Under the pieces are notes generated by a model. That model did not search any database, was not told the origin of the DNA, and saw only the letters and a list, made by a program, of their open reading frames with translations. From the NCBI RefSeq assembly GCF_023638035.1, contig NZ_JAKRVX010000011.1:1-61322 (forward strand): a DNA stretch of 61,322 nucleotides. The letters run 5' to 3'. The position numbers and the translations under genes were made by a program. Source of the DNA: Natronocalculus amylovorans (GTDB lineage: Archaea; Halobacteriota; Halobacteria; Halobacteriales; Haloferacaceae). Below, in pieces: positions 33,111 through 41,059 of this stretch; within the stretch, counting starts at the first letter, position 1, and every line of letters begins with the position of its first letter.

Positions 33111-33173
33111 TAACGTAGCGTTACTTTGAACAGAAACTGTCGGTTACGATCGACGACTGTTCTGGAGCTACTG

Positions 33174-33617
33174 ATGCACATCAAACAATTCATCACCAGT
33201 CAACGCGCTGTCTCGCCAGTTATCGGGGTTATCCTCATGGTCGCAATAACAGTCATCCTCGCAGCTGTTGTTGGGACGTTTGTGATTGGGCTTGGCGATT
33301 CAATCGGAACTGCACCGACTGCGAACTTTAATTTCGATTACACGAATGCAACTGGGAATGACACCCTCGTAATCACACACAGCGGCGGTGACACGATCGA
33401 TGGGAGCCAGCTATCGATCGTTGCCTCTGGTGTTGAACTCTCTCCATCTGATACCACCTGGAGTGGTGGCTATGACGGCGCTGCACGGGTGAATGCTGGA
33501 CAAAGCATTACTGTTGAAGAGGGCAATCTCAGCGACGCAACGATCCGTCTCGTCTGGACTGACGCAAGCGGTGATCGAAGTGCAACTCTCGCAACGTGGA
33601 GTGGCCCGAACGCATAG
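33174..33617 (+). CDS. Type IV pilin
   Basis: 147 residues from the ATG at 33174; the open frame reaches 16 codons further upstream without support. [20 protein letters not shown] at residues 9-28 gives the prepilin site and conserved H-domain shared with the pilin at 22694. The mature domain is about 105 residues, beta-rich, Thr/Ser/Gly-rich, with [20 protein letters not shown] near the end. The two pilins share their H-domain and the VRLVW...SGDR-type ending, so they are paralogues. It likely uses the PilB/PilC machine of this or another locus. Confidence 0.88.
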
Positions 33618-33663
33618 ATTGGGCCGTGATATCAGGCCCACTACAGCGATCGAACCGCCACCT

Positions 33664-33671
33664 TTTATGTG
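33664..33671 (+). promoter_or_regulatory. Putative TATA box of hpt
   Basis: TTTTATGT at 33664-33671 lies 21-28 bases upstream of the ATG at 33692, consistent with leaderless transcription. Confidence 0.5.
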
Positions 33672-33691
33672 ACACCTCTTGTATCCGCAAC

Positions 33692-34258
33692 ATGGATCTG
33701 TTGCGTCAATCACTCCTTGATGCGCCAATTATCGAAAAAGGCGAGTACCAGTATTTTGTCCATCCGATCAGCGATGGTGTTCCAATGCTCGAGCCGGAAC
33801 TGCTTCGAGAGATCGTTATTCGGATTATCCGGAAAGCCGAACTCGAAAACGTTGATAAGATTGTGACGCCTGCGGCGATGGGTATCCACATCTCGACTGC
33901 AGTGTCGTTGATGACGGATATCCCACTCGTTGTTATCCGAAAACGAGAGTATGGCTTAGATGGTGAGGTTTCGTTAAGTCAAGAGACCGGCTACTCGGAA
34001 TCGGAGATGTATATTAATGATGTTGAGGCGGGCGATCGTGTCCTCGTGCTTGATGATGTGCTCTCGACTGGCGGAACGATGAAAGCGATTCTTGATGCAT
34101 TGACGGGTATTGGTACTGAGGTTGTGGACGTTGTTGCAGTTATCAAAAAAGCAGGCCCAAACAAATTAGACGATACTGAATACCGTGTTAAAACATTAAT
34201 TAATGTGACTGTTGAAGACGGTGAAGTTGTTATTGTCAATCCGTACGGCGATAATTAG
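33692..34258 (+). CDS. hpt: Purine (hypoxanthine/adenine) phosphoribosyltransferase
   Basis: 188 residues from the ATG at 33692, supported by the TATA box; the longer frame overlaps the upstream pilin. It starts [20 protein letters not shown]. The PRPP-binding motif is [19 protein letters not shown] (residues about 114-132), and [20 protein letters not shown] precedes it. The enzyme salvages free purine bases by joining them to PRPP; haloarchaeal members are usually called HGPRTase-like or APRTase, and the base preference cannot be read from sequence. Confidence 0.88.
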
Positions 34259-34566: not shown

Positions 34567-36555
34567 ATGTCACAGGACACCAAACGATCAAGTAAGGTCC
34601 TTAATCGACGACGACTCCTCCAGGGTGCAGGTGCCGCAGGTGTTGCTGCACTTGCTGGCTGTTCAAGTAACGGCGGTAACGGCAATGGTAACGGTGGTAA
34701 TGGTAACGGTGGTACCGATCAGATTCAGTTCCCACTTGAAATACAACTCGAAACAAATGCCGATAACGACGACCGTGTCCAGCTTGTTGAGCTTATTGCA
34801 GAGTCAATGGAGCAAACGGGCTACTTTGAGACCTCTGTTGAAACATACGAGTGGAACACATACTCTGGTCGCGTTTTAGACACCGAATACGCTGATGAAG
34901 GGCATATTCCATGTATTGGCCTTTCAGGAACATTCAATCCTGGAAGTTTCTGTGATGCGCTTCACCACAGCTCCAACCACGGCCAATGTTGTAACCTCGT
35001 GGGTGTCAGTAACGCCGAACTTGACGACATGATCGACTCTGCGCGATTCGGCAGCACAGAGATTGCTGAAGACCCAGAAGCACGTGGTGCTGCATATGAT
35101 GAAGTATGGCGTATGCTCGCTGATGAACGTTACAGTTCGATTACGCACTTCGGTCTCAACACTGCAGTTGCAAACATGAATGTGCACGGATTTGCCTCGT
35201 ACCCATTCGACGAGACTGTATACAGCTATGCACTCCATGCACCGTTCGACGAACAGGTTGCGTGGCTCGATGAAAGCGGTGCATCACCAAATGATACGGA
35301 TCTGAGCGATCTTCAAGAGGGCGGAACGCTTCGTGTTGGCGTTGGTGCAAACATCGACTCCTTTGACCCACCATACAGTACAGATACCACGTCGACGATG
35401 GCTCAAGGGTTTATTTTTGAGGGGCTTACTGCTACGGATGCAGAAGGTATTGTCTACCCATGGCTTGCAGAATCGTATGAGCTAGTCGATACGAACGACA
35501 TCGAGCGAGTCGCATACGAAGATTACATGATCACCGTTGATGCCGATGAAGACGGTGTAATTGACACTGAGGAGCAAGTAATTGTCCAACATCCAGAAGA
35601 TGATCCAGTCGCAGACGACGAAGTCCGCGTCTTAACCCCTGAAGAAGCAGCCGATGCTGTTGCTGATGATGTCTTTGGCATGCAGTACCGATATGAGCTT
35701 CACGAGGGTGTTGAGTTCTCGAATGGCGAAGAGCTCACCGCAGAACACGTTGTCAACTCCCTTCGACGGTACGAAAACTCCGACCTCTCTGCGCAGACGT
35801 TCGACTCAGTTCTTCATATTGAAGAAGTTGATGAGTACACCGTTGACATCTTTGGTCAAGTTGTTGACGCAGAAGGTGAACGTGAACTTCCTGGATTCCT
35901 TATATTCACTGAAGAGCAGGCCCAAGCAGAAGGTGGCGAAATCGATCCACGACAGGAGTTCACCCCGATCGGAACTGGGCCATACGTGCTTGATGACTTC
36001 TCCGATGAGCAGTTCGCTGAGTACGAACGTAACGATAACTACTGGTTAGAAGACATTGGTGTAGAGAATCTCGAATGGTTCGATGGACCGTCCGACTTCC
36101 CAAACGCACCTGTTATTGAGCGGCTCGAGCTCGAAATCATTCCAGACAATGCAACACGATCGGCTGCACTCCAGAATGACGAGATCGATGTAACAACAGG
36201 GCTTACATCCGCAACACTCGATGACTTCGACGAATCAGATGATTTCTTTGTGTACAGCGTTGAAGCAGGTGGATACGATTACATCCAGTACCCACTCGAT
36301 GTTGAACCATGGGATGATAAACGCCTCCGCCAAGCGGTGAATCATCTCGTTCCACGTGAAGCGATTGTCAGTAACATCTTTGCAGGGTGGGCAAGCGAAG
36401 CATGGACGGATATCCCAGAGCTCGCACGTGGCGCAGGTACCGCTGACTTCGACGCACTCGAAGATGAGATCCGCCCAACCAACGAGTTTGACCCGGAGCG
36501 AGCAGCTGAACTCATCGAAGAAGTTATTGAAGACCGCGGCTACCCGATGAACTAA
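34567..36555 (+). CDS. dppA: Dipeptide/oligopeptide-type ABC substrate-binding lipoprotein, circularly permuted
   Basis: 662 residues. A twin-arginine lipoprotein signal (NRRRLLQ, then LAGC with the lipid cysteine at residue 32) and a Gly/Asn linker come first. Residues about 53-237 (PLEIQLETNADNDDRVQLVE ... YALHAPFDEQVAWLD) match the C-TERMINAL part of SBP_bac_5 proteins. Residues 252-662 (GGTLRVGVGANIDSFDPPYS, then TPIGTGPYVLDDF, RNDNYW, KRLRQAVNHLVPREAIV, FDPERAAELIEE) match the N-TERMINAL two thirds. The chain ends at RGYPMN, exactly where the normal order would continue into the residue-53 block. The frame is intact and ends in a normal stop. It is followed by dppBCDF, so it should serve a Dpp-type importer at the outer membrane face. 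Confidence 0.88.
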   Translation: MSQDTKRSSKVLNRRRLLQGAGAAGVAALAGCSSNGGNGNGNGGNGNGGTDQIQFPLEIQLETNADNDDRVQLVELIAESMEQTGYFETSVETYEWNTYSGRVLDTEYADEGHIPCIGLSGTFNPGSFCDALHHSSNHGQCCNLVGVSNAELDDMIDSARFGSTEIAEDPEARGAAYDEVWRMLADERYSSITHFGLNTAVANMNVHGFASYPFDETVYSYALHAPFDEQVAWLDESGASPNDTDLSDLQEGGTLRVGVGANIDSFDPPYSTDTTSTMAQGFIFEGLTATDAEGIVYPWLAESYELVDTNDIERVAYEDYMITVDADEDGVIDTEEQVIVQHPEDDPVADDEVRVLTPEEAADAVADDVFGMQYRYELHEGVEFSNGEELTAEHVVNSLRRYENSDLSAQTFDSVLHIEEVDEYTVDIFGQVVDAEGERELPGFLIFTEEQAQAEGGEIDPRQEFTPIGTGPYVLDDFSDEQFAEYERNDNYWLEDIGVENLEWFDGPSDFPNAPVIERLELEIIPDNATRSAALQNDEIDVTTGLTSATLDDFDESDDFFVYSVEAGGYDYIQYPLDVEPWDDKRLRQAVNHLVPREAIVSNIFAGWASEAWTDIPELARGAGTADFDALEDEIRPTNEFDPERAAELIEEVIEDRGYPMN

Positions 36556-36612: not shown

Positions 36613-37569
36613 ATGAGCTTAAGAAGATTTATACTCAAGCGATTATTGGCAATTATCCCAATCCTGTTTGGGGTCTCCGTAATTACCTTCGCAATGGTCC
36701 ATCTAACTCCGGGGGACCCGATCGATCAGATGATCGGCTTAAACCCGGATATTACTCCCGCAGACGAAGCCCAGATACGGGCACGATATGGGCTTGATGG
36801 CCCAATTTACGAGCAGTATCTCACATGGATGAGCAATGTGCTTGTTGGAGACTTTGGGGAGGTTGTCTACAGCGGTCGAGATGTATCGACAATCGTTATT
36901 GAACGGCTTCCAGAGACGATCGCACTTGGAATATTTGGATGGGTATTTGCGCTTGGAATTGCAATTCCAACCGGAATTTATGCCGCCGTGAATAAAGACA
37001 AATTCGGTGACACAGTAAGCCGATTCGTTGCGCTCTCCGGGATTTCGATTCCGAATTTCTGGCTTGGATTAATGTTGATCCTTGTCATGGCGCTATGGCT
37101 CGGGTTGTGGCCCGTCCTTGCACCATCTCGGTTACCGCTGTATCACCCTGAGATGTTGTGGTTCCTTATTCTACCTGGTGTCACAATTGGGACCGCGGCT
37201 GCAGCGAGCATTATGCGTGTCATGAGAACTGCAATGGCAGAAGAAATGAACAAAGAGTACGTCACTGCAGCACGGGCTAAGGGCCTTCCAGAGAGAAAGG
37301 TTGTATTAAAACACGTTCTCCGAAACTCACTTATTTCAGTTGTCACTCTTGCAGCAACACTCACTGCTGGTATTGTTTCCGGCTCGATTGTTGTTGAGGT
37401 CGTGTTCAATTGGCCTGGACTTGGACGAGAATTCATTAATGCAATCGACCGTCGTGAGGTGAACCTCATTATGGCTATCACGCTATTTACTGGGGTCGCG
37501 ATTATCATTGCGAATTTGATTGCAGACATACTGTACGCAGTACTTGACCCACGAATTAGATATGACTGA
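36613..37569 (+). CDS. dppB: ABC transporter permease DppB
   Basis: 318 residues, six hydrophobic helices. The N-terminal RFILKRLLAIIPILFGVSVI and VHLTPGDPIDQMIG pattern is typical of DppB/OppB. The coupling motif with the ATPases is EYVTAARAKGLPERKVVLKH (EAA loop), about residues 216-235. Follows dppA after 57 bases; its stop overlaps the dppC start. Confidence 0.92.
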   Translation: MSLRRFILKRLLAIIPILFGVSVITFAMVHLTPGDPIDQMIGLNPDITPADEAQIRARYGLDGPIYEQYLTWMSNVLVGDFGEVVYSGRDVSTIVIERLPETIALGIFGWVFALGIAIPTGIYAAVNKDKFGDTVSRFVALSGISIPNFWLGLMLILVMALWLGLWPVLAPSRLPLYHPEMLWFLILPGVTIGTAAAASIMRVMRTAMAEEMNKEYVTAARAKGLPERKVVLKHVLRNSLISVVTLAATLTAGIVSGSIVVEVVFNWPGLGREFINAIDRREVNLIMAITLFTGVAIIIANLIADILYAVLDPRIRYD

Positions 37570-38617
37570 TACACAAAATATTTCAGCCGGTCGCGGACGT
37601 ATCCAGATCACAGGGTTCGACCCAGAGCGTGTTACGGAGCGAGAGCCCCTCTCTGACTGGACTGAAGAGACAGGAACAGGCACACAAAGTAGATGGAAAC
37701 GTGGCTTCAAACGGTTCGTAAGAAATCGATCCGCCATGATCGGCGTAATTGTCGTTTCGATAATGTCGCTGCTTGCGATCTTTTCGCGGCCGATCGAATT
37801 CTTTGGATTCGTTGTCCAACCGTTTGCGATCGCACCATACGACCCGACAACAATTCTCTATCTCCAGGATCCGACAGTAAATGTGTACGATCCACCATCA
37901 AGTGCGCATCCAATGGGAATCGATGGGTCTGGGCGTGACTTGTTCTCACGTATCCTCTATGGGGGCCGATACAGCCTTTCGATTGGTTTTGTTGTCGTGG
38001 GACTTACCGCGAGTGTCGGTTTGGTCTATGGTGGTATCTCTGGATACTACGGTGGCTGGGTTGACGAACTGATGATGCGCATTGTTGATACAATCTACGC
38101 CTTCCCGGGTATTGTCCTTGCACTCATCATTGTTGCAATTCTTGGTGGGGGCTACTGGCAGCTTGTCCTTGCATTCTCCTTATTTGGATGGAATGGATAC
38201 GCGCGTCTTGTCCGCGGAGAGGTGTTGAAAATCAAGCAAAACGAGTACGTACTTGCAGCCAAAGCGCTTGGTGCACGCGATCGATCTGTTATCTTTAAAC
38301 ACATTCTGCCGAACGCAATGCCACCATTGCTTGTACTTGCATCACTCAGTATCGGTACGGTCGTGATTGGTGTTGCAGCACTTGGCTTCCTTGGATTGGG
38401 AATGCCACCAGGAACTGCAGAGTGGGGTACGATGCTTGACGCAACCCGTGAAACGCTAATCCAGGGTCCAGATGGACAGATTCCATGGTGGGCAACGATC
38501 TACCCCGGAATGGCAATCTTCATCTTTGTTATGTCAATGAATATGATTGGTGACGGTGTAAACGATGCATTGGATGCACAGGAAACTGGTGCTGGTGAAC
38601 AAGCAGGTGGCGTCTAA
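37562..38617 (+). CDS. dppC: ABC transporter permease DppC
   Basis: 351 residues from the ATG at 37562, which overlaps the dppB stop by eight bases; a longer frame starts inside dppB and is rejected. An N-terminal soluble stretch of about 50 residues precedes RNRSAMIGVIVVSIMSLLAI. PMGIDGSGRDLFSRILYGGR is the DppC/OppC signature, and the EAA loop is NEYVLAAKALGARDRSVIFK. Pairs with DppB to form the membrane channel. Confidence 0.92.
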   Translation: MTDTQNISAGRGRIQITGFDPERVTEREPLSDWTEETGTGTQSRWKRGFKRFVRNRSAMIGVIVVSIMSLLAIFSRPIEFFGFVVQPFAIAPYDPTTILYLQDPTVNVYDPPSSAHPMGIDGSGRDLFSRILYGGRYSLSIGFVVVGLTASVGLVYGGISGYYGGWVDELMMRIVDTIYAFPGIVLALIIVAILGGGYWQLVLAFSLFGWNGYARLVRGEVLKIKQNEYVLAAKALGARDRSVIFKHILPNAMPPLLVLASLSIGTVVIGVAALGFLGLGMPPGTAEWGTMLDATRETLIQGPDGQIPWWATIYPGMAIFIFVMSMNMIGDGVNDALDAQETGAGEQAGGV

Positions 38618-39699
38618 TGGCACTACTTGAAATAAAAGATCTCACGGTGAGATTTTATACACAAGAAGGTGTTGTGACTGCAGTTGACAATCTCTCCTAC
38701 CAGATCAAACGTGGTGAGAAGTTTGGTGTTGTTGGTGAAAGTGGCGCAGGCAAAAGCGTCACAGCACTCTCTTTGATGCGGCTTATTGACTCACCAGGAC
38801 GCATCGAAAGCGGGGAGATCCTATTTAAAGGACAAAACATCTTGGATATGACTGAAAAAGAAGTCAGAAGCCTTCGTGGAAACGAGATCTCAATGATCTT
38901 CCAAGATGCGCAAACTGCTTTGAATCCAGTGTACACTGTTGGTGAGCAGATCTCAGAAGCGATGCGACATCACTTGGGCTATAGCAATGAGGAAGCTCGC
39001 GAACGTTCAATCCAACTACTCGATCAAGTTGGAATCCCAGAGGCAGAGACAAGGTACAGTGATTACCCACACGAATTCTCAGGAGGAATGCAACAGCGTG
39101 CGGTGATTGCGATGGCACTGTCATGTGACCCGGACCTACTGCTCTGCGACGAGCCAACGACGGCACTTGACGTGACCATTGAAACACAAATTCTTGATCT
39201 TATTGAGGAGCTTGCAGATGAGTTTGACACTGCAGTTCAACTGATCACACATGATCTAGGAGTTGTTGCTGACATCTGCGATCGTGTAATGGTGATGTAT
39301 GCTGGCAAACCAGTGGAGAAAGCTCCTGTAGAGGAGCTGTATTATGATCCAAAACACCCATACACCGTCGGATTGATGAGCTCGATTCCACGTGTTGGTG
39401 ATACTAGAGATCGACTGCAGACAATTCCGGGGACGATGCCAGACCTCGTTGAGCTTCCACCAGGATGCAGCTTCCACCCTCGGTGTCCATTTGCAGAAGA
39501 CGCCTGTACAACAACAGAGCCCGCACTGATAGATATCGAATCCTCAGATGAAGCAACAGTAGACAGTTCTCGTGCTGCTGCCTGTCTGGAGTATACTGAT
39601 CAGTTACAAAATGGACTTGATTACGAGGTGCGTGTTGTTGATGAGAACACCGGTTCGGAGATGAACCCGACACAAACAGGAGGGTCGCAAAATGTCTAA
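38617..39699 (+). CDS. dppD: ABC transporter ATP-binding protein DppD
   Basis: 360 residues. Walker A GESGAGKSVTALSLMR, signature EFSGGMQQRAVIAMAL, Walker B DLLLCDEPTTALDVTIETQI and the switch histidine in LITHDLGVVADICD. The C-terminal oligopeptide-type extension has the cysteine cluster PPGCSFHPRCPFAEDAC, which in relatives can carry an iron-sulfur cluster. The start shares one base with the dppC stop. Confidence 0.93.
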   Translation: MALLEIKDLTVRFYTQEGVVTAVDNLSYQIKRGEKFGVVGESGAGKSVTALSLMRLIDSPGRIESGEILFKGQNILDMTEKEVRSLRGNEISMIFQDAQTALNPVYTVGEQISEAMRHHLGYSNEEARERSIQLLDQVGIPEAETRYSDYPHEFSGGMQQRAVIAMALSCDPDLLLCDEPTTALDVTIETQILDLIEELADEFDTAVQLITHDLGVVADICDRVMVMYAGKPVEKAPVEELYYDPKHPYTVGLMSSIPRVGDTRDRLQTIPGTMPDLVELPPGCSFHPRCPFAEDACTTTEPALIDIESSDEATVDSSRAAACLEYTDQLQNGLDYEVRVVDENTGSEMNPTQTGGSQNV

Positions 39700-41059
39700 C
39701 CAAACTGATAGCCCGATCTTGCGGGCGGAGAATCTGAAAAAATACTACGATACTAGTGGTGGGTTTGTTGAGAGTTTACTCAACCGAGGGAATACTGTCA
39801 AAGCAGTTGATGGCGTTAGCCTCGAACTTCGCGAAGGTGAAACACTCGGTGTTGTCGGTGAGAGTGGCTGTGGAAAAACGACGCTTGGTCGGAGTTTGAT
39901 CAGGCTTATTGAACCAACGGATGGGTCTGTGTACTACCGAGGCGATGATATTACTACCATCTCAAAAAAGGAACTCCGATCGCTTCGAAAAGATATCCAG
40001 TATATCTTCCAAGACCCATTCTCAAGCCTTAATCCACGATTGACAGTCGGTGATATCATTGGAGAGCCACTGGATATTCATGGGCTTGCAAGTGGACAGG
40101 AACGTGAGGAACGAATATATGAACTGCTCGAAATTGTCGGGCTAAATCCAAGTCATGCACGTCGATATCCACACGAATTTTCAGGGGGACAACGACAACG
40201 GATCGGTATTGCCAGAGCACTTGCAGTTGATCCAGAGGTAATCATTTGCGACGAGCCGGTGAGCGCATTAGACGTGAGTGTCCAAGCCCAGATCCTCAAT
40301 CTACTTGAGGACCTTCAAGATGAGTTTGGACTCTCTTATATATTTATTGCACACGATCTGAGTGTTGTTGAACATATCTCAGACCGTGTTGCAGTGATGT
40401 ACCTTGGTAAAATTGCGGAAATTGGACGCACTGAAGAGGTATTCACACCGCCATACCACCCATACGCTGAGGCGTTGCTCTCTGCTATTCCGGAGCCAGA
40501 CCCGCTATGGGAGGGTGAACAGATATTCTTGTCAGGAACGGTGCCATCGCCGATCGATCCGCCGTCAGGATGTTCATTCCATACGCGATGTCCACGTATC
40601 ATCCAGCCAGAGAGCTACGAGATGGAACAGGCCACGTGGCGGTCGATAATGGATTTCAAACAGCGTGCTGCAGGTGCGGATTCACTTGAGGCACTTACTG
40701 CGGTTAATACCGATGCAGACACATACACCGATCGCACTGACCCACGTGAACTACCATTCGGCGAGTTTGAGACGCTCGTTAGAAACGAATTCTCTATCCC
40801 AGACCCAATTTCGGACTCTCAAGCTGAAGCAACTTTCGTCGATGTATTAGAAACACTTCACAGCGATTCGCTTGCTATCGGGATTGACCGTGTGAGAGAG
40901 GCATTTATTTCACCGTGTGAGGAGCAATCACCTGAACTAATCGCAAATAGTGAGACACATCACATTTCTTGCTTACTCTACGATGATGAACTCGGTAGCG
41001 ACACAGGATATCAGACAGAGACAAATGGGCAGGACAATGAAACTGCACTAAGCAATTAG
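39692..41059 (+). CDS. dppF: ABC transporter ATP-binding protein DppF
   Basis: 455 residues. Walker [18 protein letters not shown], signature [20 protein letters not shown], Walker [21 protein letters not shown], switch His in [14 protein letters not shown]. The cysteine pair [14 protein letters not shown] follows. After about residue 310 there is a 140-residue haloarchaeal extension, mostly acidic, with no catalytic motif; it ends with [12 protein letters not shown] and DNETALSN. The start overlaps the dppD stop by eight bases. Last gene of the dpp operon. Confidence 0.92.

Follow-up and report, generated by a model that had tools for sequence, protein, structure and literature searches.

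A circularly permuted family-5 substrate-binding lipoprotein in Natronocalculus amylovorans and the apparent recurrence of its permutation

The window, the 61,322-nucleotide stretch of Natronocalculus amylovorans DNA analysed here, carries an open frame of 662 amino acids (34567-36555) that encodes a substrate-binding protein (SBP) of family 5 (Table 1). The RRRLL and AGC motifs at its start can be read by eye; the Pfam TAT_signal model reaches 14.6 bits where its cut-off asks for 22.7. The Gly/Asn-rich linker that follows is encoded in part by a 15-nt tandem repeat (34681-34710). By Pfam, the genes 3' of the SBP make up a DppBCDF-type importer operon, for whose dppC we favour the ATG at 37562 over the listed TTG at 37520. 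The signal peptide, lipobox, linker and dppBCDF genes that a preliminary description had read from the sequence are all in place. Just upstream of the operon lie an archaeal type IV pilin-like gene (33126-33617) and a phosphoribosyltransferase gene (33596-34258), both assigned by Pfam.

Table 1. Parts of the SBP gene and the importer genes downstream of it.
Feature	Position	Strand	Basis
Putative Tat-type signal peptide RRRLLQG, lipobox AGC with Cys32	34567..34662	+	read directly in sequence
Gly/Asn-rich linker, residues 33-51	34663..34719	+	sequence
C-terminal segment of family-5 SBP, now first, residues ~52-237	34720..35277	+	normal-order HMM 352-530; 3m8u chain 351-503
Joint of old C-terminus and old N-terminus, LDESGASPNDTDLSDL	35266..35313	+	junction comparison; length 13 aa
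N-terminal two thirds of SBP, now last, residues ~249-662	35311..36552	+	Pfam SBP_bac_5 16-275; HMM 10-352
dppB-type permease	36613..37569	+	Pfam BPD_transp_1, BPD_transp_1_N
dppC-type permease	37562..38617	+	Pfam BPD_transp_1, OppC_N
dppD-type ATPase	38617..39699	+	Pfam ABC_tran, oligo_HPY
dppF-type ATPase	39692..41059	+	Pfam ABC_tran, oligo_HPY

The protein matches Pfam SBP_bac_5 (PF00496) at 178.5 bits, far above the cut-off of 32.4, and the best stretch pairs residues 371-652 with profile positions 16-275 of 368. The order of the matches departs from the canonical one, in that the match to the end of the profile precedes the match to its start. PDB entry 3m8u is likewise matched in swapped order (residues 381-658 to chain positions 91-345, residues 58-221 to 351-503). 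We obtained the same picture with an HMM built from canonical-order proteins and run against the 669-residue open frame, whose numbering is 7 higher: residues 60-243 correspond to HMM positions 352-530 and residues 248-666 to positions 10-352. The reversed order of the PF00496 matches identifies the protein, by homology, as a permuted variant of the family, and these alignments make the mature chain a genuinely circularly permuted SBP_bac_5 protein. The cut falls between the helix FDPERAAELIEE (end ...PERAAELIEE) and the strand PLEIQLETN, and around residues 315-370 the chain carries an acidic insertion that is extra with respect to SBP_bac_5 proteins. AlphaFold2 models were too poor to judge closure of the fold, both without an alignment (pLDDT 33.6) and with a nine-row alignment that contained no permuted homologues (pLDDT 52.8, pTM 0.45); the best Foldseek matches of the poor model were family-5 SBPs, at TM scores of 0.3-0.4 of the query.

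A survey of 391 haloarchaeal genomes for the swapped order in a single frame recovered it as an uninterrupted ORF from 35 further genomes, spread over 8 other genera and 3 families. Several of these are single-contig assemblies, three more cases come from the window's own family, and we confirmed the order by reading the homologues' frames directly. A dppB homologue stands beside the SBP gene in every locus of the clade to which the window protein belongs (clade A), whether the SBP is permuted or normal. Among close permuted pairs dN/dS lies between 0.06 and 0.28 in both halves, which indicates that both are under purifying selection. The preliminary description had proposed a circular permutation cut at this place and a search for homologues of the same order; the homologues, the Pfam and PDB match order, dN/dS and the trees described below all bear the proposal out. 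What it had presented as a singular case is, however, a widespread and recurrent arrangement. In genome G012 the permuted gene has, ~1.4 kb away, another SBP_bac_5 match that is interrupted by a TAG codon (L098, G012:C1:410258-411382, + strand); at only ~25% identity it is possibly a decaying paralogue.

The window's own genome encodes two further permuted family-5 SBPs, P0002 (G000:C12:285661-287367, - strand), in which Pfam positions 283-367 come ahead of 2-286, and L108 (G000:C2:288895-289914, - strand). Many haloarchaea have co-linear relatives of P0002, and proteins of the P0002 type, their order checked by HMM, occur on alphaproteobacterial plasmids of Nitratireductor, Ketogulonicigenium, Microvirga, Roseomonas and Maritalea. 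Like the window protein, P0002-type SBPs are cut at the same site and have ABC-importer genes alongside in annotated loci; unlike it, they lack the long insertion, are only ~24-31% identical to it and, by AU test, have a separate origin. Across 17 sampled haloarchaeal genomes, a set weighted to genus g13, Pfam SBP_bac_5 matches are of two kinds, with their ends at profile positions ~326-366 or ~257-288. By our count the second kind comprises 33 of the 84 family-5 ORFs (about 39%), and those of its members that we inspected are permuted. Scans of viral contigs gave no match.

Could all these proteins descend from one ancient permutation that was later undone on many occasions? In favour of such descent, every group is cut at almost the same site. 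Yet AU tests reject A+B, A+D, B+D, D+E and all permuted proteins together as single clades (p from 9e-5 to 3e-57), and the joint, measured relative to the HMM ends, varies by group, from 12-15 aa in A to -2 to 1 in B and -7 aa in P0002. We regard a single event as very unlikely. By these tests groups B, D and E arose separately, each cut at about one helix/strand boundary, and in Halorussus pelagicus a normal-order protein is 46% identical to a permuted member of group E. The phylogenies point to four or more independent permutations, all near a single site; because the deep branches are long, an exact count of events is unsafe and this lower bound is the safer statement. The draft genome G049 (L100:2906-4909, - strand) carries another kind of circular permutation, whose cut lies within the acidic insertion loop, and a search of 292 genomes for this type of cut returned no second case.

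Canonical-order relatives of the window protein are numerous (G001, G048, G014, G275 and many more), and for tree building the permuted sequences were first rearranged into normal order. Its nearest relative, from G001 (L018), is ~73% identical and of normal order. The two share the signal peptide, the operon and both halves, and differ in that the G001 orthologue has the normal N-C order. Their pairing is supported at 100/99 by the whole protein, 87 by the N part, 95 by the C part and 93 by dppB; the window row is absent from the 125-row broad tree, from which de-duplication had removed it. The N-part and C-part trees name the same nearest relative, so the two halves have a common history. 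Haloarchaeal genomes hold several family-5 paralogues each, from one of which the C-segment could have been acquired by fusion rather than by permutation of one gene. A C-segment from another paralogue would not be expected to place the window protein beside G001 in both trees, nor to be as similar to G001 (72.7%) as the N part is (73.8%), and we give the fusion reading very little credence.

With permutation of one gene as the preferred reading, the history of clade A can be considered. Monophyly of its permuted members without G001 is rejected (p-AU 0.0002), while monophyly including G001 (p 0.158), including G001 and G275 (p 0.246) or leaving out the window protein (p 0.118) is not. Together with the pairing with G001, these results imply that the order switched at least twice within clade A, and the tree fits a reverted G001 and a window protein permuted anew alike. 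The joints help to choose between the two. Setting aside readings of -222, which stem from a stray HMM match, the C-N joint measures 12-15 aa in all measurable clade-A proteins (13 in the window) and carries a recurring DLSDLQEGG-like motif; the N-C joint of G001 is 16 aa (RA..FP) versus 18 aa in most outgroup proteins of normal order. The uniform length supports one gain followed by a return to normal in the G001 lineage, and so favours that history over a fresh permutation of the window protein. We would put at about even the chance that permutation in this family is frequent and bidirectional, clade A having been permuted once and G001, perhaps with G275, having gone back to normal, which would leave orthologous operons at ~73% identity with opposite orders.

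Two remaining explanations hardly merit consideration. The window is a 61-kb draft contig of a genome in 20 contigs, so that assembly or binning might have exchanged two parts of a gene of normal order; but the same order in one frame across many independent genomes, some of them single-contig, excludes misassembly, related permuted SBPs sit on finished, named plasmids, and in our view the homologues have already disposed of this reading. A programmed, reversible DNA switch that flips the order within a population would suit the difference in order between near relatives, but is almost certainly wrong: neither long repeats nor inverted sites flank the gene closely, the genome holds a single copy, and the full-length clade-A members found in genus g13 are all of one order.

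We are highly confident that the gene encodes a lipid-anchored, probably Tat-exported, circularly permuted SBP of a DppBCDF-type ABC importer, with its old termini joined by a short acidic linker. The permuted chain would adopt the normal two-lobed fold and deliver its substrate with DppBCDF as usual. It may have originated when the mature part, behind the signal and linker, was duplicated in tandem and the outer segments, the first N-segment and the last C-segment, were then lost. The tether, attached before at the old N-terminus, would now enter at the cut within the C-terminal half, and might thereby sit on another face of the binding protein, as the preliminary description had proposed. 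We found no DNA scars or repeats of a duplication at the joints. It is tempting to speculate that Tat export, in which the protein is folded beforehand, eases tolerance of such changes. By our reading some alphaproteobacterial members have apparent Sec-type signals, so Tat would not be a requirement.

The preliminary description had named the protein DppA. As a family-level label this stands, but the specific identity does not, as the DppA equivalog model NCBIfam NF043070 scores 44.7 bits against a cut-off of 1005. At 34927-34950 (residues 121-128, GTFNPGSF), NPGSF aligns with the GDPDNF of dipeptide and glutathione binders, and Asn124 replaces the Asp of the DppA-like motif; Asn is found in 34 of 41 permuted rows. 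Most of clade A shares this replacement, which raises the possibility that the substrate is something other than a peptide with a free N-terminus. Separately, a vicinal Cys pair at 34984-34998 (residues 140-144, QCCNL) is kept in 37 of 41 relatives with the permuted order and in 32 of 36 with the normal one, and could possibly form a vicinal disulfide or a metal site.

Most circular permutations in nature are old and happened once. In this case at least four independent permutations near one site, in a large ABC-importer family, can be compared with normal-order relatives, and the opposite-order sisters at ~73% identity and the second cut site (in one draft genome) add to the material. The system allows direct tests of the origin of permutations, of the preference for one site, and of whether the position of the tether or export in the folded state by Tat lets such changes be tolerated. 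There is also a practical side, since a large share of the binding proteins of haloarchaea is cut into pieces or shortened by linear profile methods. The records that we inspected are annotated only as 'ABC transporter substrate-binding protein', with the permutation unmentioned, and we found no report of a permuted family-5 SBP in the open-access literature that we searched.

With SBP_bac_5, or cluster C, proteins such as DppA, OppA, NikA and GsiB (PF00496), the window protein shares homology of both segments and the type of operon, with BPD_transp_1 permeases and oligo_HPY ATPases; it differs from them in the swapped segments, the acidic insertion at residues 315-370 and Asn124. The nearest precedent that we found is TpMglB-2 (Tp0684), a sugar-binding lipoprotein of cluster B with a permuted chain; its authors proposed the designation 'Type Ic / cluster Bc' and did not decide whether the permuted portion stems from another gene (PMC4990184). 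We considered a Type Ic / cluster Bc identity for the window protein and rejected it, the sequence being family 5 and no MglB-like protein appearing among its matches. Both proteins are natural circular permutations of a tethered ABC-importer binding protein, but TpMglB-2 is bacterial and has the Type I (cluster B) sugar-binding fold.
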